This document shows, one piece after another, positions 25,763-40,687 of a stretch of DNA of 64,000 nucleotides (position 1 is the first letter of the stretch; the number at the start of each line of letters is the position of its first letter). A program made the translations under genes and the position numbers. The notes under the pieces are model-generated. The model worked only from the letters and a program-made list of their open reading frames with translations. It was not told where the DNA came from and searched no databases. The DNA lies in NCBI RefSeq assembly GCF_039645565.1, contig NZ_CP147914.1:558001-622000 (forward strand), read 5' to 3'. This DNA comes from Sulfurimonas sp. HSL1-2 (GTDB lineage Bacteria > Campylobacterota > Campylobacteria > Campylobacterales > Sulfurimonadaceae).

Positions 25763-26873
25763 TGTGTCGCCGGTGACCGGCGATGAAATGGCCTATATTG
25801 GCGAGGCAATCCAATCACGCCTGTTGGCCGGAGACGGCCGTTTTACAAAGATGTGCGAGGCATGGTTTGAAAAGAGCTTGTCAACGCCAACAGTACTGAT
25901 GACAACTTCTTGTACACATGCACTCGAGATGGCTGCAATGCTTATCGGAATAGTGCCGGGCGATGAAGTGATCATGCCCAGTTATACCTTCGTCTCGACG
26001 GCCAATGCCTTTGTGATCCGAGGGGCAAAGATTGTTTTTGTCGATGTCCGTCCGGATACGATGAATATCGATGAAACACTGATTGAGGGTGCGATCACCC
26101 CGAGGACTAAAGCGATTGTCCCGGTGCATTATGCAGGTGTAGGCTGCGATATGGAAACCATCATGGATATTGCGACGCGGCATGGGCTCTACGTTGTGGA
26201 AGATGCGGCACAGGGGATGATGTCGACCTATGCAGGCAAACCGCTCGGTACTATCGGCCATCTGGGGACTTACAGTTTTCATGCTACCAAAAACTATACG
26301 AGCGGCGGGGAAGGTGGCCTGCTGATTATCAATGATGAAAAACTGGTGGACCGGGCACAGATTATTCGGGAAAAAGGGACGAACCGTAATCAGTTCTTTA
26401 GGGGGATGGTCGACAAATACAGCTGGGTCGATGTCGGGAGCAGTTATCTGCCCTCCGAAATCCAGGCCGCCTACCTTTGGGCACAGCTGCAGCATGCAGG
26501 TGCGATCCTGGCGGACCGTATGAACAGCTGGCAGGCCTATGACCGTTTTTTCCGTGCAAGCCCATATGCGCTTGAGCTGCCTACGATTCCAGAAGCGTGC
26601 ATTCATAACGCCCATATGTATTACATCAAAGTAAAGGATCTGGAGGAGAGGCGGCAGTTGATTGATCACATGCGTGATCAAGAGATTAATGCCGTATTCC
26701 ATTATGTTCCGCTGCACTCTGCACAGGCAGGCAGGCGTTTTGGCCACTTTCAGGGGGAGGACAGGTACACCACAAAAGAGAGTGAGCGCTTATTGCGTCT
26801 GCCTCTCTATTTCAAGATGTCAGGCAGTGATCTGGAACGGGTATGTGAGCAGGTGGATGCTTTTTTTAAATAG
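25749..26873 (+). CDS. DegT/DnrJ/EryC1/StrS sugar aminotransferase, WecE-like
   Basis: The 374-aa PLP enzyme has the catalytic lysine at residue 181 in FHATKNYTSGGEGG, which is close to the WecE/RffA form of the motif. Other family features are TTSCTHALEMAA, GDEVIMPSYTFVSTANAFV and VEDAAQGM. WecE makes dTDP-4-amino-4,6-dideoxygalactose from the 4-keto-6-deoxy sugar. The same or a related product is plausible here, but neighbouring substrate specificities are hard to tell apart. rmlA/rmlB-type genes for the precursor are absent from the window. It overlaps both neighbours (14 and 17 nt). Confidence 0.85.
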   Translation: MIYFNVSPVTGDEMAYIGEAIQSRLLAGDGRFTKMCEAWFEKSLSTPTVLMTTSCTHALEMAAMLIGIVPGDEVIMPSYTFVSTANAFVIRGAKIVFVDVRPDTMNIDETLIEGAITPRTKAIVPVHYAGVGCDMETIMDIATRHGLYVVEDAAQGMMSTYAGKPLGTIGHLGTYSFHATKNYTSGGEGGLLIINDEKLVDRAQIIREKGTNRNQFFRGMVDKYSWVDVGSSYLPSEIQAAYLWAQLQHAGAILADRMNSWQAYDRFFRASPYALELPTIPEACIHNAHMYYIKVKDLEERRQLIDHMRDQEINAVFHYVPLHSAQAGRRFGHFQGEDRYTTKESERLLRLPLYFKMSGSDLERVCEQVDAFFK

Positions 26874-28707
26874 CAGATTGTTTCTTCTCACAGTCGTCTT
26901 CCTGACGCTTGCCTTATACCTTGGGCCGTTCGGGCTGTACGGTCCCTCTGTGGCTCTACCGACATTTGACAATCTTGACAGTAAGATCGTCCTTTATAAG
27001 ATCTTGGCTGAAAGCGGTATGCTGTTTGCGCCTTCATCGTCTATTGTCCCCAATATGATGGATGGACTTCCGCGCCTCTCGTATGGGAGTGAATTGAATG
27101 CCTTGGTGTGGCTTTTTGTCTTTTTCAAACCTTTCACTGCCTATGTGATGAACGAAGTGATCATGCATCTGACGGCATTCGTCAGTATGCTGGTTTTACT
27201 GCGCCATTATTTTGTGCCTTATACCATTCGGTTCAGAAGGCTTGTTATCCTTTCGAGCTCTTTACTTTTTGCATTGACACCTTTCTGGTTCTCCGGCGGC
27301 CTGAGTGTCCCGGCAATGCCCCTGGTCTTGTACGCCTTTTTACGTATCAGAGATGGTCAGGGGAGGTGGCAGGAGTGGGCCGTACTGCTATTAGTGCCTT
27401 TTTACAGCAATCTGATTCTGGTGTACAGTTTTTTTTTAACGGCAATGGCACTCTGGGCAGTCGCGGACAGGATTGTGTACCGATCCATTAACCGCCCTTT
27501 TGTGGGTGCCATCGTACTGATGGGCATTGTCTATCTCGGTGTGGAATACAGACTGGTGATTTCTATGTTCTTTGATGATGCATTTATTTCTCACCGCACT
27601 GAATTCGTGAAGTATTACGGGACTTTTGCGGAGGCATTCCGCTCCGCACATTTGCTCTTCCTGGGAGGTGAAGAGCATACGGCAATACGGCTTTCACCTT
27701 ATGTGATCGGCACTGTCATGATCGCGATGCTGCTTTCGTTCAAGTCATCGGATTTCTCCCGAAAAGATTCGTTGCTTGTCATCGCCGTGATCTTACTGGG
27801 GTTTTTTTCAGGGTTATGGAACACTGCCTTGGCGCAGAAGATGACACTCCCGGTCATTGTCTCTGTTTCACTGGTAGGATTTTTCCTGCAAAAAGGAATT
27901 CTCAGAGTATTGTTTGCGATGATGCTTGTTCAGATCGCGTTTGCCTATGAATATGCATTTTGGTTCTATGAAGGGATGCATGATCTCGCCCGGCAGTTTT
28001 CTTTTATCGAAATGTTCAATATGTCACGCTTCTATTTTATGGCGATTCCACTGTGGATTGTTATGCTGGCCATTTCGTTTTCGCTGCTAGTGTCCAAACT
28101 CAAGTATGCTGAGATACTCATCGGTTCCGTGGTAGTGATGCAGGCGGCAACCCTCTTCGACGTACGGACCTTTGTCGAAAAAGACCTTTATCACACCAAG
28201 GTGGGTTTCGAACAATACTATGCACCGGAACTCTTTGAAGACGTTGCAGATACTGTCGGAAAGCCTAAAGATTCCTACCGTGTGGTCAGTCTGGGGATTC
28301 ATCCGCTTGTCGCACTCTATAACGGTTTTTATACGCTCGATGGCTATTGTACGAACTACCCACTCTCCTACAAGTACAGATTCCGTCCGGTCATTGCCGA
28401 CAATCTGTCACGATATCCCGGCAATAGAAAGATGTATGATGATTGGGGAAGCAAGTGTTACGTCTATGCGGGCAATATCGGTTACATCCGTTATTTCCCC
28501 GGGGTGGTGCTGAAAGGTGTCGAGATCAATGTCGATTATCTGAAGGCTATGGGAGGGGAGTATGTCCTTTCAGGCTATGAAATAGACGGTGCGGCTGACA
28601 TCGGATTGAAATTCATAAAAGTTTTTACAAGCGACAAGGCTTATTGGGATGTCTATCTTTATGAGGTGATAGGAACAGCAGGCGAAGGCGGGGAAAAAGT
28701 AGAATGA
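26857..28707 (+). CDS. YkoS/YfhO-like polytopic membrane protein, array copy 1
   Basis: The 616-aa protein has about 12 hydrophobic segments. The first extracytoplasmic loop carries FDNLDS (residues 37-42) and is followed by GLPRLSYGSELNALVWL. The C-terminal region has YRVVSLGIHPLVALYNGFYT, then LDGYCTNYPLSYKYRF, WGSKCYVY and the ending YWDVYLYE. These blocks recur in the other four copies. The group resembles YfhO/YkoS, proposed GT-C transferases that move sugars from polyprenyl phosphate to surface polymers; the paired acidic residues in the first loop suit that fold. ATG 26857 overlaps the aminotransferase gene by 17 nt. Confidence 0.65.
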   Translation: MLFLNSRLFLLTVVFLTLALYLGPFGLYGPSVALPTFDNLDSKIVLYKILAESGMLFAPSSSIVPNMMDGLPRLSYGSELNALVWLFVFFKPFTAYVMNEVIMHLTAFVSMLVLLRHYFVPYTIRFRRLVILSSSLLFALTPFWFSGGLSVPAMPLVLYAFLRIRDGQGRWQEWAVLLLVPFYSNLILVYSFFLTAMALWAVADRIVYRSINRPFVGAIVLMGIVYLGVEYRLVISMFFDDAFISHRTEFVKYYGTFAEAFRSAHLLFLGGEEHTAIRLSPYVIGTVMIAMLLSFKSSDFSRKDSLLVIAVILLGFFSGLWNTALAQKMTLPVIVSVSLVGFFLQKGILRVLFAMMLVQIAFAYEYAFWFYEGMHDLARQFSFIEMFNMSRFYFMAIPLWIVMLAISFSLLVSKLKYAEILIGSVVVMQAATLFDVRTFVEKDLYHTKVGFEQYYAPELFEDVADTVGKPKDSYRVVSLGIHPLVALYNGFYTLDGYCTNYPLSYKYRFRPVIADNLSRYPGNRKMYDDWGSKCYVYAGNIGYIRYFPGVVLKGVEINVDYLKAMGGEYVLSGYEIDGAADIGLKFIKVFTSDKAYWDVYLYEVIGTAGEGGEKVE

Positions 28708-30536
28708 AGAGACTGGCACAGACCGTTTTGGACAAACGTACCCTGCTTGTTGCAGCACTGACGGTACTTGGACTCTATCTGCTCCCGTTGTGGGTTACAG
28801 GAGATAGGCTCTATATCCTGGTCTTTGATAATCTTGACTCGCCGATACTCCTGTTCAAAGTATTGGCAGAGAGCCATCAGCTTTTCGCGCCTTCCATGGA
28901 GATCATTCCGAACATGATGTCAGGTCTGCCGCGCTTGAGTTTTGGCAGCGAATACAATGTACAGGTGTGGCTCTACCTTCTTTTTAGCCCTTTTTTGGCG
29001 TATCAGATCAACTTGACACTTGTTCACCTGGTGGGTTTCATCGGTATGTATCTGCTGATGAACCGCCTGACGCCAAGGGATACCGGGCCATATCGACAGG
29101 CCGTTGCGGTATTGTCGGCGCTGCTTTTTTCCATACTGCCATTCTGGCCTCCCGGAGGGCTGAGCGTATCGGGGCTCCCTTTGCTGCTTTATCTCTTCTT
29201 GAAGGTCCGTGACGGGGAGTATGCCTATTATGATATTGCACTGCTGCTGCTCTTCCCGTTATACAGCAGTTTTGTCCTAAGCGGTGTGTTCTTTCTGACG
29301 GCAATCACGCTGCTTTGGATCGCAGATGTTGTGAGGAAAAAGGCACTGAATGCCCCATTTGTCGGGATGATTGCTTTGCTGGGTCTCTCCTATTTACTGG
29401 TGAATTACCGTCTGGTCGACCAGATGCTGCTTCCGTCGGATTTTATCTCCCATCGTTCGGAGTTCTTCCGCGATTTCGGTTCGTTCTTTGATTCGTATCG
29501 TTTTGCGCACCTTCTGTTCCTCAACGGCCAGGAACATACCTCTTGCTCGCAGGCGAACTGGATCATCCCGACTATTCTGATCGGACTATCGTTTTCCGTA
29601 CTTTCTACGCCGCTTTCTAGATATGCGTCACTTTTTTGGCTGATGGTGATAGCCTTGTCATTTCTTTTCCCTTTTTGGCAGACGATGACAACGCAACGAT
29701 ACTCACTGCCAATGCTGCTGCTGTACGGTCTTGGGATCCTCCTGGTATCAAAAAAGCGGTTGCTTCCGCTGCTGTGGATCATCCAGATCGCTATTTCATA
29801 CTGGCACGGCTTCTGGACGTACGAGGGATGGATCGGTTGGGTCGAAAAGTACCAGATCCTCCGTTCGTTCGATTTTTCAAGGTTTTATTTTCTTCAACCG
29901 ATGTTGTGGATCATGATGTTGGGCATTGCATTTGCGGTCATTGTGAAAACAGTGCGGTATGGTATAGTGATGGTCCTTGCGATTGCCGTGCTGCAGTCCC
30001 ATGCCCTTTTCCAGTCTAAAACGTTCATGAAGGCATCCGGCCCAGACAGGTTGAGTTTTCATTCATATTACGCAGAAACACTATTTCAGCGTGTAAGAAC
30101 AACGCTGGATGAAGATCCTGCTGGCTACCGGGTCGTCGCATTCGGCATACCGCCGGCGGTCCTAATCTGGAACGGCTTTTATACAATCGATGGGTATGTG
30201 ACGAACTATCCACTGTCATATAAACACGAATTCGCAAAACTGCTGGAAAAGGATTTTGCGAAGCGGCCGCAGAACAAAGCGATATTTGAGCATTGGGGAA
30301 GCAAGTGCTATCTGACCGGCGGTGTCTCTTATACGCATTATGTCCGCGGCCAACCCTTGGATGATGTACAGCTTGATACTGCAAGGCTGAGGGCCATGAA
30401 TGTACGATACCTGTTTTCCGCGCATGAAATAAGGGCACCCGAACGCGATGCGTTGCGGTTGAAAACAAAAGTAGTAAATGATCAGGATAGTTATTGGGAT
30501 GTCTATGTCTATGAGCTGGATACAGCAGAAAATTAA
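28704..30536 (+). CDS. YkoS/YfhO-like polytopic membrane protein, array copy 2
   Basis: The 610-aa protein is closest in outline to copy 1, with which it overlaps by 4 nt (ATGA). FDNLDS lies at residues 41-46 and GLPRLSFGSEYNVQVWL begins at about 74. Near the C-terminus come YRVVAFGIPPAVLIWNGFYT, IDGYVTNYPLSYKHEF, WGSKCYL and YWDVYVYE. The hydrophobic core differs clearly from the other copies, so this is old duplication rather than a recent repeat. The likely role is a lipid-linked glycosyl transferase with its own acceptor or linkage. Confidence 0.65.
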   Translation: MKRLAQTVLDKRTLLVAALTVLGLYLLPLWVTGDRLYILVFDNLDSPILLFKVLAESHQLFAPSMEIIPNMMSGLPRLSFGSEYNVQVWLYLLFSPFLAYQINLTLVHLVGFIGMYLLMNRLTPRDTGPYRQAVAVLSALLFSILPFWPPGGLSVSGLPLLLYLFLKVRDGEYAYYDIALLLLFPLYSSFVLSGVFFLTAITLLWIADVVRKKALNAPFVGMIALLGLSYLLVNYRLVDQMLLPSDFISHRSEFFRDFGSFFDSYRFAHLLFLNGQEHTSCSQANWIIPTILIGLSFSVLSTPLSRYASLFWLMVIALSFLFPFWQTMTTQRYSLPMLLLYGLGILLVSKKRLLPLLWIIQIAISYWHGFWTYEGWIGWVEKYQILRSFDFSRFYFLQPMLWIMMLGIAFAVIVKTVRYGIVMVLAIAVLQSHALFQSKTFMKASGPDRLSFHSYYAETLFQRVRTTLDEDPAGYRVVAFGIPPAVLIWNGFYTIDGYVTNYPLSYKHEFAKLLEKDFAKRPQNKAIFEHWGSKCYLTGGVSYTHYVRGQPLDDVQLDTARLRAMNVRYLFSAHEIRAPERDALRLKTKVVNDQDSYWDVYVYELDTAEN

Positions 30537-32379
30537 AATGGTTGCTTCGTGGAGCCGGGTCCCCGGGCTGCAGGAAAGGGTTTCGGTCGGCATGGCACTG
30601 ACCGTTTTGGCAATATACCTTCTTCCGCTGCTGACATATGGGACATCTTTGCATATCCTGGTGTACGATAATCTTGACGGGATCATCCCTACCGTGAAAA
30701 TTTTGGCGCAAAGCGGGCAGCTTTTCGCTGACTCTACATCGGTTCTTCCCCAGATGATGGGAGGACTGCCGAGGCTGTCATTCGGAAGCGAATGGCGTCT
30801 CGTGGTGTGGCTTTATTCCCTGTTCCCGCCCTTTGCGGCTTATGCTGTTCATGAAATACTCATCCACGTTGTCGCATTTGCATCGATGGCATATTTTTTG
30901 AAGTCGAACATTCTTTCGCCGACATACCCATACCGTAGTGTGATGCGCTACGGGATCGCACTCGCGTTTGCCCTCATGCCGTTTTGGCCGATGGGAAGCC
31001 TGAGTATTCCGTTGATGCCGCTGACGGCAGCTATTTTGATTAAGATACGTGCCGGGCACGCATCCCGCCTGGAGTGGGGCTTGCTGATGCTGGTCCCGTT
31101 TGCCAGCAGTTTCGTCGTCTACTATTTCTTTTTTCTCTTGATCGCCGGGGTGGTTTGGCTGCGGGATCTTCTCATAAGGCGTCAATGGAACCTTGCGTTT
31201 TTCTTTGCGATCGCGGGGATGGTTTTGGTTTTTCTTCTGGTGGACTATCGTCTGGTCCATGAGATGTTTTTCGACGTAGGGTATGTTTCGAACCGTGTAG
31301 AATTTATAAAGACCTATATTCCTTTCGCACAGGCGTATAAAATTGCGCACCTGACGTTCTTGGAAGGGCAGCCGCATAGCCGGAGCATACATCTCCCCTT
31401 TATACTGTCCATGGTGATTGTGGGGATCATGCTGACACGGGTTCGTACACAACTGTCTTTGCCGCTGTCACTTGTGCTTATGCTCCTGCTGGCCGGCACT
31501 TTCATGACGACGTTCTGGAACCAGGTCCTGGGAAATTTTTACACCATGCCGGTTTTGCTGGTCGGCACGACTGTTTTGCTGGTGGCGCAAACGCACTCTC
31601 GACCTTTTCTGGGACTGTTCTTGTTGCAGATCGTGATCGCTTATTGGTATGCCTTCTGGTATTACGAAGGGTGGGAAAAGATCGCGGAGCAGTTTCGATT
31701 CATCGAGATGTTTCATTTTTCCAGGTTTAATAACCTGCAGCCGTTTTTGTGGTATGTCTTGATGGCATACAGTGTTTCGATACTGGTCCGCAAAGTCCGT
31801 TTTGCGACGCCATTTCTTGTAATGCTCATCGCATTTCAGGTGGCGATGGCATTCAATCACCGAACGTTCCAGATCGCAGTAAGCCAGCAGGCCGTGACCT
31901 ATGAAAATTTTTATGCTGTCGATATGTTCAAGAGGATCAAAGCATATATCGGTCTCCCGCAATCGCAATATAGGGTTGTCAGCCTCGGGATATACCCGGC
32001 GGTGAGCCTCTATAACGGTTTCTATACCCTTGACGGTTATATGAACAACTACCCTTTGTCCTATGCACATCTGTTTGAAAAGTTTACTCTTCGCCCCGAT
32101 GCTTACCGTTATCGTAAAGAGCACGGCCTTCAAAACTGGACGAGCAAATGTTACATACCCGTGGAGGGGAAAGTATATTATGACTATACGAAGAACGGCA
32201 GTGCTGATCGTCTTGATATGGATACATCACTGATGTACGATCATGGGCTTCGCTTCGTATTGTCGGGATACAGGCTGAGTGCCCCTGAACAATATGGACT
32301 GGAGTTTTTAAAGTATTTTTCGGACCAGGAGAGTTTCTGGGATGTCTATTTGTATGCTGTGTGTAAGGAGAAGATGTGA
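30511..32379 (+). CDS. YkoS/YfhO-like polytopic membrane protein, array copy 3
   Basis: The protein is 622 aa from ATG 30511, which overlaps copy 2 by 26 nt. ATG 30538, 1 nt after the copy 2 stop, is an alternative, and neither has a strong ribosome-binding site. The first-loop motif is YDNLDG (residues 52-57), then GLPRLSFGSEWRLVVWL. The C-terminal block is YRVVSLGIYPAVSLYNGFYT, LDGYMNNYPLSYAHLF, WTSKCYIP and FWDVYLY. It therefore keeps both acidic residues of the first loop but has Tyr and Gly at the flanks. Same proposed role as the other copies. Confidence 0.65.
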   Translation: MSWIQQKIKMVASWSRVPGLQERVSVGMALTVLAIYLLPLLTYGTSLHILVYDNLDGIIPTVKILAQSGQLFADSTSVLPQMMGGLPRLSFGSEWRLVVWLYSLFPPFAAYAVHEILIHVVAFASMAYFLKSNILSPTYPYRSVMRYGIALAFALMPFWPMGSLSIPLMPLTAAILIKIRAGHASRLEWGLLMLVPFASSFVVYYFFFLLIAGVVWLRDLLIRRQWNLAFFFAIAGMVLVFLLVDYRLVHEMFFDVGYVSNRVEFIKTYIPFAQAYKIAHLTFLEGQPHSRSIHLPFILSMVIVGIMLTRVRTQLSLPLSLVLMLLLAGTFMTTFWNQVLGNFYTMPVLLVGTTVLLVAQTHSRPFLGLFLLQIVIAYWYAFWYYEGWEKIAEQFRFIEMFHFSRFNNLQPFLWYVLMAYSVSILVRKVRFATPFLVMLIAFQVAMAFNHRTFQIAVSQQAVTYENFYAVDMFKRIKAYIGLPQSQYRVVSLGIYPAVSLYNGFYTLDGYMNNYPLSYAHLFEKFTLRPDAYRYRKEHGLQNWTSKCYIPVEGKVYYDYTKNGSADRLDMDTSLMYDHGLRFVLSGYRLSAPEQYGLEFLKYFSDQESFWDVYLYAVCKEKM

Positions 32380-34244
32380 GTTTTGACAAGCTGGCCGGGG
32401 AACGGATAAAGCAGTACTTCAGTACTTCTAGGAGCCGATTTTTTGTTTTTCTGCTCGGGATGGTGGCGATGGGAGTCTACCTGTGGCCGATCAGCAGCGG
32501 TGCCGATATGATCATGACAATCTCCGATAATCTCGATTCCGCGCATTCGCGGTACTATGTCCTGGCGAATAGCGGAAAGATTTTCGCAGATTCCATGAGT
32601 ATGGTCCCGGGGATTATGCATTCGTTGCCCCGGATCTCCTTTGGAAGCGAATTCAACGTTTTACTGTGGCTTTATGTCATCTTCCCGCCGCTCGAAGCCT
32701 ACAGTGTCAATCTTGTAATGATGCACATGGTCGCTTTTTGGGGGATGCTGCTGCTGTTGCGGAATCATTTTATTCCCCGTGATATTGCCTATCGCGAGTT
32801 GCTTGTTGTCCTGGGGACCTTGCTCTTTGCTTTCGTGCCATTCTGGCCAGCGGGCGGCCTCAGTGTTGCCGGTCAGCCCTTGGCGCTCTATGCATTTTTG
32901 AATATTCGAAAGAGCGGTGGGCGGTATTATGATTGGATGATCGTGACGCTCCTGCCGTTTTACAGCAGTTTTGTCTTGGCCTACCTCTTCTTCCTGATTC
33001 TGATGACAGGGCTTTGGCTTTTTGATTGGCGAAAAGAAAAGCGAATCAATACTGGTCTGTTTATCGCCATTGCACTGATGACAGCGATTTTCCTTGCGAT
33101 TGAATATCGCCTGGTTTCCGTGATGCTGTTTGGTCAGGGCGGATTTGTGTCCCACAGGGAGGCATTCGTCACGGAAGTAAGAGGTTTTTTGGATGCCTAT
33201 CGTGAATCACACCTGATCTTCCTTGATGGGCATGTCAATACACCCACAGTGCAGTTTGACATTGTCATTTTGGCGGTATTGGCAGCAATGGCACTCTTTG
33301 CACTTGTTGAGAAGATACGGATTGGAACACGCATTTCAATCCTGTTTATCCTGACGTTTTTTCTTATGATGTACAGTGGCGCATATATGGACATGATAAG
33401 ATCAAAATATGCGATGGGGACGCTCCTCGTCATGACGCTTGTATTTGTGAAGTTTGTCCGCGTGCATGCATCCAGACTCTTCGGAATGCTTTTCCTCCTG
33501 ATTCTCATGAGTTCGTTCCTCTACGGGTTTTGGTCTTATGAAGGGGTTCAGTTCATCAAAGAAGCGATGCCGTTTTTTGAAAAATTCAACTTTTCACGGT
33601 TTTATTTTTTACAGACATTGGCCTGGTACATATTGCTGGCAATGGCTTTCGTCATATTTGTCCGCTATTTGCGTTTTGGAATGGTCTTGGTCATATTTAT
33701 ATTCGTGTTCCAAGCTGACAATGCATTCGTCCGCCGCTCTTTTAACAAATTAACAATGCAGGCTGTCAGTTACGGCAGTTTTTTTGCCCCGTCGGTGTAC
33801 AAGGATATTCGTGACTTCATCGGAAAAGATCCGAAGGATTATTATGTCGTCATGTTGGGGATGCACCCCTCAAGCGCGCAGTTGAACGGCCTGCAGACCC
33901 TGGACGGGTACGTCTCCAACTATCCGCTTGCGTACAAGCTGGAATTCCGCAAAGCGATAGAAAAGGAGTTGGAAAAAAATGCATTTATCATGCAGCGCTA
34001 CGACACATGGGGCAGTTCCAACTACCTGTTTTCATCGGAACTGGGCAAATACGTCATCTACAAGCGTGAAGGGGTGATCCACCATTTGGATATCAACACC
34101 ACGGTGCTGTATCAATTGGGGGGAAGGTATCTTTTAACACAGTACACGATCATGAATGCAGCTGACATCGGGCTGGACTTCAAAGCATCATTCGATTCGA
34201 AGGCGAGTTTCTGGAAAATCAACCTATATGAGATCAACCCGTGA
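32376..34244 (+). CDS. YkoS/YfhO-like polytopic membrane protein, array copy 4
   Basis: The 622-aa protein starts at GTG 32376 and overlaps copy 3 by 4 nt. The first-loop motif is SDNLDS (residues 50-55), followed by LPRISFGSEFNVLLWL. It is the most divergent in the C-terminal block: YYVVMLGMHPSSAQLNGLQT replaces the NGFYT form, while LDGYVSNYPLAYKLEF and WGSSNYLF are kept. It ends FWKINLYE. It is the last gene of the coupled operon, 95 bp before the pilin cluster. The altered block suggests a different acceptor or donor within the same family. Confidence 0.65.
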   Translation: MSFDKLAGERIKQYFSTSRSRFFVFLLGMVAMGVYLWPISSGADMIMTISDNLDSAHSRYYVLANSGKIFADSMSMVPGIMHSLPRISFGSEFNVLLWLYVIFPPLEAYSVNLVMMHMVAFWGMLLLLRNHFIPRDIAYRELLVVLGTLLFAFVPFWPAGGLSVAGQPLALYAFLNIRKSGGRYYDWMIVTLLPFYSSFVLAYLFFLILMTGLWLFDWRKEKRINTGLFIAIALMTAIFLAIEYRLVSVMLFGQGGFVSHREAFVTEVRGFLDAYRESHLIFLDGHVNTPTVQFDIVILAVLAAMALFALVEKIRIGTRISILFILTFFLMMYSGAYMDMIRSKYAMGTLLVMTLVFVKFVRVHASRLFGMLFLLILMSSFLYGFWSYEGVQFIKEAMPFFEKFNFSRFYFLQTLAWYILLAMAFVIFVRYLRFGMVLVIFIFVFQADNAFVRRSFNKLTMQAVSYGSFFAPSVYKDIRDFIGKDPKDYYVVMLGMHPSSAQLNGLQTLDGYVSNYPLAYKLEFRKAIEKELEKNAFIMQRYDTWGSSNYLFSSELGKYVIYKREGVIHHLDINTTVLYQLGGRYLLTQYTIMNAADIGLDFKASFDSKASFWKINLYEINP

Positions 34245-34339
34245 ACATTTAAGGTTCCAAAGAGAATATTAAGTTTTTCTATGCGAGAATATCTCTAGGT
34301 TGCAAGAGTAGCCAAATTTCACAAAACAAGGGGTCTCTT

Positions 34340-34717
34340 ATGAAAAGAGCTGGTTTTACAATGATCGAATTGATCTTCGTTATCGTTATTCTTGGTATTT
34401 TGGCAGCGGTTGCCATTCCGAAACTGGCAGCGACTCGTGACGATGCTAAAACGTCAACAGAGCTGACAAACATTTCCACTGCGGTTAATGATATCGGTTC
34501 ATACTACACTTCTCAGGGTACAATTGACTCATCTAGCTCTGCATCAATTGCAGCGGGTAAAGTCAAATGTTTCTCTATCGCTGCTAACGGTGCAACAGGT
34601 ATCGTAGTTTCTTCTACAAACGATGCAACAACTTATTGTGCTGCTGCACATACTGCTGCAAACACACAGGGCCTGATCGGAACACACGTATTCGGTGGTA
34701 GTGGCGTTTCTTACTAA
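34340..34717 (+). CDS. Type IV pilin-like protein 1 (candidate major pilin)
   Basis: The 125-aa prepilin has the type III signal MKRAG/FTMIELIFVIVILG: Gly at -1 and Glu at +5. The helix continues to IPKLAATRDDAK. A Ser/Thr/Ala-rich globular part has two Cys, at CFSIAAN and TTYCAAA, and the C-terminus is GVSY. It is the shortest of four tandem pilins and the only one with Gly at -1. Its codons lean to GCT, TCT and ACA, unlike the neighbours, as in abundant proteins. It has a strong AAGGGG site, and a hairpin follows it. These points suggest the major subunit of the cluster. Confidence 0.8.
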   Translation: MKRAGFTMIELIFVIVILGILAAVAIPKLAATRDDAKTSTELTNISTAVNDIGSYYTSQGTIDSSSSASIAAGKVKCFSIAANGATGIVVSSTNDATTYCAAAHTAANTQGLIGTHVFGGSGVSY

Positions 34718-34738
34718 TACAATCTGATAAATGCTCTT

Positions 34739-34760
34739 TTCAACGGCATGGGCCGTTGAA
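34739..34760 (+). terminator. Hairpin after pilin gene 1, possible attenuating terminator
   Basis: TTCAACGGC pairs perfectly with GCCGTTGAA around a four-base loop (ATGG). The downstream tract, GGGGTTTTAT, gives only four T, and upstream T can extend the stem by wobble with those G. It is placed to end most transcripts after pilin 1 or to protect its 3' end. Confidence 0.6.
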
Positions 34761-34768
34761 GGGGTTTT

Positions 34769-34792
34769 ATAACAATATACCGGTATTGTTAT
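34769..34792 (+). repeat. Perfect 9-bp inverted repeat in the pilin 1-2 gap
   Basis: ATAACAATA and TATTGTTAT flank a six-base loop, TACCGG. It sits between the terminator-like hairpin and the hairpin at the start of pilin gene 2. It could be an operator or an RNA stem. Confidence 0.5.
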
Positions 34793-34812
34793 TAGACTCA
34801 AAGGGAGTCTAA
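34792..34812 (+). promoter_or_regulatory. Inverted repeat enclosing the pilin 2 ribosome-binding site
   Basis: TTAGACTC and GAGTCTAA pair perfectly around AAAGG and end at the base before the ATG at 34813. The Shine-Dalgarno sequence AAGGGAG lies in the loop and 3' arm, so the stem would hide part of it. This could reduce pilin 2 translation relative to pilin 1 or make it switchable. Confidence 0.55.
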
Positions 34813-35271
34813 ATGAACATAAAAAGAAATGCCTTTACGATGATAGAACTGATTTTTATCATCCTGATTCTGGGTGTTTTGGCTGCCATTGCGATTCCAA
34901 AGTTTGCTGCGACCAGAGATGATGCGAAAACATCTCGTATGGCTCACAATATTATGACCACCGCATTTGAAATTTCGACGTTTGTTGTCAGTAAGGCTAA
35001 CGTAGAAGCTGATTTTACGGTCATGTCCAATACAGCCAAACTCATGAATAATCTCGGGACAGTAACGCTTAGCAATTACAAGGCGGATTACAATTTCGGG
35101 AACGTCTCCCCCTGTGTGACGCTTGAAGTTCAAAATCCCAATGCACAGATTGTCTATCTTTCAATTGCCGTTCATCCCGCGGGTGGGGATGATATGTGTA
35201 CAGCCATGCAGGGGTTGATTGATGACGGCGTATTCCCAATCAAATTAAAGGGTAGTAGTGTCTCATATTAA
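34813..35271 (+). CDS. Type IV pilin-like protein 2
   Basis: The 152-aa protein has the prepilin signal MNIKRNA/FTMIELIFIILILG, with Ala at -1 and Glu at +5, then IPKFAATRDDAK. The globular part carries a two-Cys element, VSPCVTLEV to GGDDMCTAMQ, and the C-terminus SVSY, the same plan as pilin 4. It follows pilin 1 after 95 bp filled with inverted repeats, and overlaps pilin 3 by 14 nt. It is probably a minor or alternative subunit of a type IV pilus or type II secretion pseudopilus. Confidence 0.78.
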   Translation: MNIKRNAFTMIELIFIILILGVLAAIAIPKFAATRDDAKTSRMAHNIMTTAFEISTFVVSKANVEADFTVMSNTAKLMNNLGTVTLSNYKADYNFGNVSPCVTLEVQNPNAQIVYLSIAVHPAGGDDMCTAMQGLIDDGVFPIKLKGSSVSY

Positions 35272-35710
35272 AAAAAGAAGAGCTTTCACGCTTATTGAAT
35301 TGGTTTTCATCATTGTGGTACTGGGGATCCTGGCCTCCATTGCCATTCCGAAATTTTCAGCTACACGGGATGACGCGCATATTTCAAGTGCCCGTGCAAC
35401 GATCGGTGCAGTCCGGTCCGGTATCGTGTCGGTACGCCAAAAATATCTGCTCAGAGGCGTGAACAGTTATATCAACTCATTAAGCTGCGGAGGATCAGGG
35501 GTGCTCTTCGACGGGAACTGTACAGCAGGTACGGAAATTCTGATGTACCCGTTGACACCTTCGACAGCGAACGGACATTGGTCTCAGAGCGGAAGCGATT
35601 ATGTTTTCCATATCATGGATAAGAGTTGTACGTTTGCATACAATTCAGGTACTGGTACATTTGCTCTGAAAGCCTCACAGCCTTCAGAATGTGACCCGCT
35701 CGATTTCTAA
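35258..35710 (+). CDS. Type IV pilin-like protein 3
   Basis: The 150-aa protein has the prepilin signal MSHIKKRRA/FTLIELVFIIVVLG, Ala at -1 and Glu at +5, then IPKFSATRDDAHISSAR. The globular domain differs from the other three: the Cys are in LSCGGSGVLFDGNCTAG, DKSCTF and SECDPLDF, and the C-terminal VSY is absent. The start is GTG 35258, overlapping pilin 2 by 14 nt, so translation is likely coupled. The distinct C-terminal part suggests a different position in the fibre, for example a minor or tip pilin. Confidence 0.78.
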   Translation: MSHIKKRRAFTLIELVFIIVVLGILASIAIPKFSATRDDAHISSARATIGAVRSGIVSVRQKYLLRGVNSYINSLSCGGSGVLFDGNCTAGTEILMYPLTPSTANGHWSQSGSDYVFHIMDKSCTFAYNSGTGTFALKASQPSECDPLDF

Positions 35711-35721
35711 ACGGTATCCAC

Positions 35722-36171
35722 ATGTTACGCAGTGCATTTACGATGATCGAACTTATTTTCGTCATCGTTATACTCGGGATCCTGGCAGCCGTTGCCATTC
35801 CCAAACTGGCAGCAACGCGGGATGATGCCGAAGTAAGTGCAATCATGACAAAGATTGGACAGGCTGTAGGCGAAATCTCCAATTATGCCGTTTCACAGGG
35901 AAAAGTTGAGACCGACTTTTCTGTGATGTCAAATGCTATTGATAATCTTGTGATGCGGGGTGAAGCGACACTGGGAAATAAGAGTGCCGCCATTAAGGGC
36001 GGCAGTGTGGCAAATTGTGTCTCAATTCAGGTGGTAACGAACGGTTTGGACGAAAGCATGCAGATTCTCTTCGGTGCACCCGGAGGGGATGATAAGTGTG
36101 CTGCAATTCAGAATAACCTTCCGCTCCAGAATGAGACGATTGCACTTGTTGGGAACCGCGTAAGCTATTGA
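35722..36171 (+). CDS. Type IV pilin-like protein 4
   Basis: The 149-aa protein has the prepilin signal MLRSA/FTMIELIFVIVILG, Ala at -1 and Glu at +5, then IPKLAATRDDAE. The N-terminal half is nearly the same as in pilin 1. The globular part aligns with pilin 2 (VETDFSVMSN in both forms, a two-Cys GGDDKCAAIQ element) and the end is RVSY. It starts 11 bp after pilin 3. priA begins 54 bp later and probably has its own signals. Confidence 0.78.
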   Translation: MLRSAFTMIELIFVIVILGILAAVAIPKLAATRDDAEVSAIMTKIGQAVGEISNYAVSQGKVETDFSVMSNAIDNLVMRGEATLGNKSAAIKGGSVANCVSIQVVTNGLDESMQILFGAPGGDDKCAAIQNNLPLQNETIALVGNRVSY

Positions 36172-36225
36172 CGGGTCCCGGCACTATTCCTCGGCGCTAT
36201 ACAATGTACCCAATGGCAGGACCGA

Positions 36226-38064
36226 TTGTTTTTTTATAGAGTTGCTCTCTTTTCTTCGATATTAGAACCCCTTACATACGCATCTGAAATCAGTATAAAA
36301 ATCGGAACAGTTGTCAAAGTTCCCCTGCAGACAAAAACAGTTGCCGGTGTCGTCTGGGCTGAAGTGCATTCCCCCGAACATGATGTGAAAAATGTGATTG
36401 AATTCACGAACGAGACATTGATGCAAAAACAGCGAAAGTTCATTCAGTTCATCTCAGATTACTATTTTTGTAGTCTGGGAGAAGCTGCAGCGCTGTTTAC
36501 GCCATTTGAAAAAGGGAGAGAAGCGGGGAAAATATCCACAGAACATACCGAGATTATGCTTTCGCCAAAACAATCAGAAGCATTTGTATTTCTGTCAAAA
36601 TACCCGGTCGGTCTGCTTTTCGGTGATACAGGTTCCGGCAAGACAGAAATTTATATGAAGTATTTCGAGGAGAAGCTATCAAAGGGAAAACGATCACTCT
36701 TTTTAATGCCAGAAATATCCTTGACGCCGCAGATGCAGAAGCGGCTGGAGGCGCATTTTGGAGAGTCTGTGGTGATGTGGCATTCGAAGCTGACGAAGAA
36801 ACAGAAAGAGAAGGCGCTGGAGAAAATCCGCAGCGGTGAAGCGGGCATCATCGCCGGACCGCGGTCGGCACTGTTCCTTCCTATTGACGATCTGGGTCTG
36901 ATCGTTGTGGATGAAGAGCACGATGACAGTTACAAATCCTCTTCACGGCCGCGCTACCATGCACGGGATATGGCGATTTACTACGGCAAACTCCTTGATA
37001 TCCCAGTGGTGCTCGGCAGTGCTACCCCTTCACTGAGCTCCTATGTCAAATTCCCCCACTACAGGCTCAAAGGCGGGCACTTCCAGAGCGAACGAAGATT
37101 CGAATTTGAAGCACATGCGGAGGGGGTCACACCAAAGATCGAATCGGCGATCGAGGCGGTCGTGGCCCAGAATGAACAGGCGATGCTTTTCATCCCGACC
37201 CGGGCGAATTTCAAATATCTTATCTGCAGCAGCTGCGGCTATACCTACGAGTGCCCTTTCTGCAGTGTGGGGATGAGCGTGCACCGTTACCGGCGCCAGG
37301 TGCGCTGCCACTACTGTGGGTATGCAGAGGCGATCCCCCAGCACTGCCCCGAATGCAAAACGGGCGACCTCGTCAGTTCACGTCTGGGTACGGCGGAAGC
37401 GGTCGAATATTTTCATGAACAGCGTCCGCAGTGGCGCGTGGCGCAGTTTGACCGGGATAAGATCACGACGCAGAAAAAGCTCAAGGAGCTGCTGCATGCC
37501 TTCAACGAACACGAAATCGATCTGCTCGTCGGTACACAGATGCTCTCAAAGGGGCATGATTACCATGCCGTGACGCTGGCGGTCGTCCTGGGTCTGGACA
37601 ACCTGCTTAGCCTCAGTGATTACCGTGCGCGGGAACGCGCCCTATCACTGCTGCTGCAGATCGCAGGGCGCAGCGGCCGTAAAAAAGCGGCGCGCGTCAT
37701 CGTCCAGACCTTCAATGCCGAGTTTTTTTCCGCCTACGTCGACGGGTATGAGCGGTTCCTGGATGAGGAGAAGCTTTTCCGCGAAGGGATGTACCCACCC
37801 TATAAGAAACTCTGCCGTGTGCTCTTTGCCCACAAAAAAAGCGAAACGGCCGAAGCCGCGATGCGGCAGATGGAAACGGGACTCAGAGCATTTAAGAGTG
37901 TTGAGATCGTCGGTGCGGACAAAGCGCCGATCGAAAAGATCGCGGGGAAGTACCGCTACCAGATTCTGCTTCGTGCGGACAAAAGTACGGACCTTATCCG
38001 CGCGCTGAAAGCATCTAAGGTACCGCTGGCCGAAATCGACATGGACCCCATCGAGTTCGGGTAA
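36226..38064 (+). CDS. priA: Primosomal protein N' (PriA helicase)
   Basis: PriA restarts stalled replication forks. The 612-aa protein is short compared with the about 730 aa of E. coli, as usual in Campylobacterota. Walker A is FGDTGSGKTEIYM, the DEAH-like box is VVDEEHDDSYK, and the zinc-binding region holds four CxxC pairs (CSSCGYTYECPFC, CHYCG, CPEC). Helicase motif VI is LLLQIAGRSGRKKAARVI. The start is TTG 36226 (MFFYRVAL) with AGGA 4 nt upstream; no ATG gives a complete N-terminus. Composition returns to the core type within this gene. Confidence 0.93.
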   Translation: MFFYRVALFSSILEPLTYASEISIKIGTVVKVPLQTKTVAGVVWAEVHSPEHDVKNVIEFTNETLMQKQRKFIQFISDYYFCSLGEAAALFTPFEKGREAGKISTEHTEIMLSPKQSEAFVFLSKYPVGLLFGDTGSGKTEIYMKYFEEKLSKGKRSLFLMPEISLTPQMQKRLEAHFGESVVMWHSKLTKKQKEKALEKIRSGEAGIIAGPRSALFLPIDDLGLIVVDEEHDDSYKSSSRPRYHARDMAIYYGKLLDIPVVLGSATPSLSSYVKFPHYRLKGGHFQSERRFEFEAHAEGVTPKIESAIEAVVAQNEQAMLFIPTRANFKYLICSSCGYTYECPFCSVGMSVHRYRRQVRCHYCGYAEAIPQHCPECKTGDLVSSRLGTAEAVEYFHEQRPQWRVAQFDRDKITTQKKLKELLHAFNEHEIDLLVGTQMLSKGHDYHAVTLAVVLGLDNLLSLSDYRARERALSLLLQIAGRSGRKKAARVIVQTFNAEFFSAYVDGYERFLDEEKLFREGMYPPYKKLCRVLFAHKKSETAEAAMRQMETGLRAFKSVEIVGADKAPIEKIAGKYRYQILLRADKSTDLIRALKASKVPLAEIDMDPIEFG

Positions 38065-40653: not shown

Positions 40654-40687
40654 ATAGAATAACTATAAACCAAAATAGTTATTCTAT
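40654..40687. repeat. Perfect 13-bp inverted repeat abutting the comEC start codon
   Basis: ATAGAATAACTAT (40654-40666) and ATAGTTATTCTAT (40675-40687) flank an eight-base spacer, AAACCAAA. The second arm ends at the base before the comEC ATG, and no Shine-Dalgarno sequence is visible. Being AT-rich it is a poor intrinsic terminator; an operator or a translation-blocking stem is more likely. Confidence 0.7.

Follow-up and report, generated by a model that had tools for sequence, protein, structure and literature searches.

In Pseudomonas aeruginosa, a terminator after pilA sets the ratio of pilin to TfpY, and weakening it raised TfpY (PMC11841053). The stem-loop between the two genes was put forward as an attenuator of the downstream gene that sets stoichiometry; when the authors mutated its U stretch, more of the downstream protein was made, and similar terminators in pilA-type cassettes have been reported for Bacteroides (Dichelobacter) nodosus, Eikenella, and Xanthomonas (PMC11841053). 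Hairpins can also act by protection: in polycistronic mRNA, protective hairpins and differential decay lead to uneven expression of neighboring genes, pilus genes (papBA) included (PMC5927463). In a further known case, which is not a type IV pilin operon, an intergenic stem-loop after structural subunit genes affects expression, and there the measured outcome of altering or deleting the stem-loop was reduced subunit expression.

The locus considered here lies in a 64-kb stretch of DNA (the window, in which all coordinates below are counted) from a Sulfurimonas chromosome that is complete at 2.52 Mb and gave no flagellin match. By profile matches, four genes stand in a row before priA, each product bearing the N-terminal prepilin motif of type IV pilins. 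Pilins 1 and 3 score above the cut-off for PF07963, with pilins 2 and 4 just below it; TIGR02532 is above cut-off for pilins 1, 3, and 4. The gap from the pilin 1 stop (34717) to the pilin 2 ATG (34813) carries three hairpins. The features, in order, are as follows.

34340..34717, + strand: pilin 1, the presumed major pilin, 125 aa (PF07963 N_methyl; TIGR02532; codon adaptation 0.69)
34736..34763, + strand: hairpin 1, a putative 3′-end-forming hairpin with a perfect 9-bp core, 34739-34747/34752-34760, and loop ATGG (folding; position kept in relatives)
34765..34768, + strand: short T run, TTTT, past hairpin 1 (sequence; terminator-like scan match 34735-34764)
34769..34792, + strand: hairpin 2, AT-rich, weak, and lineage specific (no counterpart in most relatives)
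34792..34812, + strand: hairpin 3, with the pilin 2 ribosome-binding site half in the loop and half in the arm (folding, pairing probabilities)
34801..34807, + strand: AAGGGAG, the ribosome-binding site of pilin 2 (sequence; AAGG in the loop, GAG paired)
34813..35271, + strand: pilin 2, a presumed minor pilin (TIGR01710 N-terminal match; PF07963 just under cut-off; codon adaptation 0.42)
35258..35710, + strand: pilin 3, overlapping pilin 2 by 14 nt (PF07963; overlap common to many relatives)
35722..36171, + strand: pilin 4, starting 11 nt past pilin 3 (TIGR02532 above cut-off; PF07963 just under cut-off)

The first-pass annotation had described three perfect stems of 9, 9, and 8 bp in this gap, and all three are where it had placed them. 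One correction is needed: T34792 is common to stems 2 and 3, so that both cannot be full length simultaneously. Hairpin 1 extends outward to 34736/34763 through two G-U pairs and one C-G pair and is by far the most stable, at -18.1 kcal/mol (34735-34764). Hairpin 2 (34769-34777/34784-34792, 9 bp, loop TACCGG) reaches -6.8 kcal/mol and is AT-rich, as had been described; hairpin 3 (34792-34799/34805-34812, 8 bp, loop AAAGG) reaches -8.7 kcal/mol and does have AAGGGAG in its loop and arm and end at the ATG. The three stems are real and far from chance. Counting perfect hairpins with a stem of 8 bp or more and a loop of 3-8, 3 of the 11 found in the 64 kb fall in this one gap; in 20,000 dinucleotide shuffles of the gap, 19,823 gave no hairpin, 177 gave one, and none ever gave two. 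The folding z-score of 34718-34850 is -4.6, which 0 of 200 shuffles matched. The longest perfect hairpin of the window lies elsewhere, at 40654-40687 (13 bp, AT-rich, ATAGAATAACTAT/ATAGTTATTCTAT), where it runs right up to the start codon of a ComEC-like competence gene (PF03772, 40688-41953) that follows a dnaB-like gene; its layout is like that of stem 3, with the hairpin ending at an ATG.

With seven ribosomal genes as the reference, pilin 1 has a codon adaptation of 0.69, and pilins 2, 3, and 4 have values of 0.42, 0.47, and 0.46, which agrees with a highly expressed first gene; codon adaptation is the sole proxy by which pilin 1 is judged to be expressed above pilins 2-4. Directly upstream of the pilin row, 26662-34244 encodes four large membrane proteins in tandem (610-680 aa), apparently paralogs; the two that were checked are both DUF6044 (PF19510, E 2e-152). 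One might guess at a role for them in pilin modification or another surface function.

Like the pilA-tfpY/tfpZ cassette, then, this locus has a stem-loop directly 3′ of a major type IV pilin gene. We compared pilin loci taken from the same genus, family, and order, and the counts below are for 54 loci (53 relatives and the window); a scan of genome contigs for relatives gave one distant locus only. The same gene order recurs, in that a major-type pilin (MKR[AS]GFTMIELIFVIVILGILAAVAIPKL) is followed, 70 to 508 nt later, by at least one divergent pilin; where there are several, they often overlap, and overlap of pilins 2 and 3 is common. In the family set, the gap past pilin 1 is never shorter than 70 nt. 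At 49 of the 54 loci, the window included, a hairpin of -10 kcal/mol or better lies no more than 90 nt past the major pilin stop, so that a stem-loop separates the major pilin gene from a codirectional pilus gene, as between pilA and tfpY. Its median position is about +14 to +41 from the stop, and its z-score is below -2 at 48 loci. Such hairpins were found at far fewer loci in control regions (2/54 upstream of pilin 1, 15/54 mid-gene, and 15/54 after the last pilin; Fisher's test, ~1e-11 or less), and they are also present at most loci from other families of the order.

The hairpin sequences are mostly unrelated from locus to locus, and what is conserved is therefore a structure at a place. 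In 38 loci the hairpin is stabler on the sense strand and in 10 on the antisense strand (Wilcoxon, 8e-6), the bias expected if RNA with G-U pairs is under selection. Among the 11 hairpins that can be aligned, four pairs have changes on both sides, and pairing is kept at 96%, compared with at most 49% in slid versions; the set is small, and the both-sides count was reached by 7 of 500 shuffles. Stem covariation in relatives had been proposed as a check; it came out in favor of stem 1 only, and stems 2 and 3 are not conserved. By these comparisons, hairpin 1 is a conserved feature whose position has been kept while its sequence was rewritten.

At five loci, the first gap has no hairpin that reaches -10 kcal/mol. 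Three of them (L092, L095, and L097) have two tandem major pilins each, with no hairpin between the copies and one after the second; in those three genomes, the hairpin thus sits where the major pilins end and the minor ones begin. The other two (L100 and L124) have weaker hairpins, of -7.0 and -7.8 kcal/mol. Three further loci (L104, L107, and L108) carry a hairpin past the first pilin as well as past the second.

Taking together the codon bias, the conserved hairpin, and the parallel with pilA, we take an abundant pilin 1 mRNA to have its 3′ end formed by stem 1. Our main reading, to which we give a probability of roughly 75%, is that hairpin 1 is a constitutive 3′-end-forming hairpin between the major and minor pilin genes, with limited readthrough. 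Transcription starting upstream of pilin 1 would mostly end at hairpin 1, or be trimmed back to it and protected there, and pilin 1 mRNA would be abundant as a result. A smaller share of transcripts would run on through pilins 2-4, which are probably translationally coupled. The proposal of high pilin 1 and low pilin 2-4 expression, made at first pass, thus holds up as far as stem 1 is concerned: its position is kept, it shows compensatory change, codon adaptation agrees, and an open gap follows pilin 1, in contrast to the overlap of pilins 2 and 3. The suggestion that pilin 2-4 expression is conditional found no support, since 34500-35000 offers no alternative partner of at least 7 bp for the stems, and no thermal opening is predicted up to 55°C.

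How hairpin 1 would make a 3′ end is less clear. In the window, it resembles a terminator, as had been noted: the terminator-like scan matches 34735-34764, a G+C-rich hairpin of 13 pairs, 6 of them G-C, and the TTTTATAA directly 3′ of it, with its four T, passes a loose scan. In this it differs from pilA-tfpY, which has a U stretch, and the relatives differ further, being mostly without a U-tract: at least five T within 8 nt after the stem were found in only 12 of 54, and the T fraction past the family hairpins is flat at ~0.4, with no U enrichment. Classical intrinsic termination is therefore not established, and termination and 3′-end protection are indistinguishable. Nor were clear canonical terminators to compare with found at rRNA operon ends or between the window's convergent genes. 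The rRNA operon ends of this same genome (L147-L149) read CCCCTCTTTTT or CCCCTCTACTT, with no strong hairpin and U-tract right after 5S rRNA, and so the 3′-end signals of this genome may be unusual. One can envision, tentatively and with some doubt, that the order uses a U-tract-less hairpin, kept in place but not in sequence, for the 3′ end of the major pilin mRNA, outside the classical rule for intrinsic terminators.

It is plausible, although we lean against it, that hairpin 1 does not terminate at all and is a stabilizer, blocking 3′-5′ exonucleases after a four-gene transcript has been cleaved in the gap. Such differential decay is a sub-case of 3′-end formation at hairpin 1 and not exclusive of it. 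It is a known route to uneven operon expression, with papBA among the examples (PMC5927463), and the missing U enrichment after the family hairpins fits it. As in papBA, a hairpin in a polycistronic pilus message would here give uneven expression of neighbors; in papBA, however, protection is 5′ of the downstream gene, whereas the conserved hairpin here is 3′ of the upstream one. Against pure protection, hairpin 1 in the window has TTTT after it and a terminator-like score. Elsewhere in related genomes, moreover, the same hairpin motif is found mostly just past stop codons, and in several cases it separates convergent genes; these are sites at which transcripts would be expected to end, and thus likely ends of transcription units.

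It seems rather unlikely that hairpin 1 is a full terminator and that a separate promoter, within the gap or close to it, drives pilins 2-4, so that no readthrough would be needed. Against this, the tail has only four T; no sigma-70-like match was found on the + strand of the window's gap, nor in the stretch from hairpin 1 to pilin 2, which is only ~49 nt long and is occupied by two hairpins. What speaks for it comes from the relatives. Some have long gaps, up to the full 508 nt, and −10-like boxes before pilin 2 number 100 against 78 ± 7 expected, with TATAAT at -25 in L034, -42 in L040, and -35 in L052. Given this excess, some of the family may transcribe pilins 2-4 as a unit of their own, and a separate pilin 2 promoter is likely in some relatives. 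A block resembling CGTARAAYTCAGNNCAATAGGATTA also lies upstream of the second pilin in six loci (L051, L053, L100, L114, L122, and L126); unlike the hairpins, it is conserved in sequence.

Stems 2 and 3, as far as these loci tell, are private to the window's lineage. Around the start of pilin 2, a strong hairpin is missing from most relatives. An 11-bp stem is present there in L039 and L041 but leaves the ribosome-binding site free, and in a few (e.g., L036 and L042) an unrelated fold may cover it. This weighs against stem 3 as a conditional translational switch for pilins 2-4, be it a thermometer or a target of a small RNA or protein, as does the prediction that it stays paired from 10 to 55°C, with no opening in the warm of the kind expected of an RNA thermometer. 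No arm of 7 nt or more that could compete with any of the three stems, as in a riboswitch or attenuator, was found in 34500-35000, and Rfam gave no credible match in 32000-38000. What speaks for a switch is the perfect 8-bp stem running up to the ATG with the ribosome-binding site partly paired, and we consider it very improbable. The statement that stem 3 hides this site was half right: throughout 10-55°C, GAG is predicted to be paired and AAGG, in the loop, unpaired. Because this pairing is predicted to be stable and no competing helix was found, a fixed brake is possible and a switch is without evidence. At most, stem 3 may impose, in this lineage, a modest and fixed reduction of pilin 2 initiation by pairing half the ribosome-binding site. 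Hairpin 2 may serve as a spacer or as an insulating helix.

That stems 2 and 3 serve a regulator as DNA operators and are not RNA structures is the least probable reading of all; their sequence is AT-rich and nearly palindromic, but the genome has no other near copy of the gap sequence. A REP-like dispersed repeat was rejected, as the TTCCCAAGC...GCTTGGGAA hairpin is limited to 0-2 sites in each genome and there is no second copy of the window's gap.

For 3′-end formation at hairpin 1, the closest comparison remains pilA-tfpY, with the difference that an accessory protein is encoded downstream there and presumed minor pilins are encoded here. Most likely, the separation of major from minor pilin expression by hairpin 1 is an ordinary form of control that is unusually well conserved here. 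It offers a simple account of how one row of genes would yield many main filament subunits and few minor ones, a solution known from Pseudomonas and a few others that has been kept across the whole order while its sequence was rewritten. As the U-tract is missing, 3′-end formation without one may be studied in this order.
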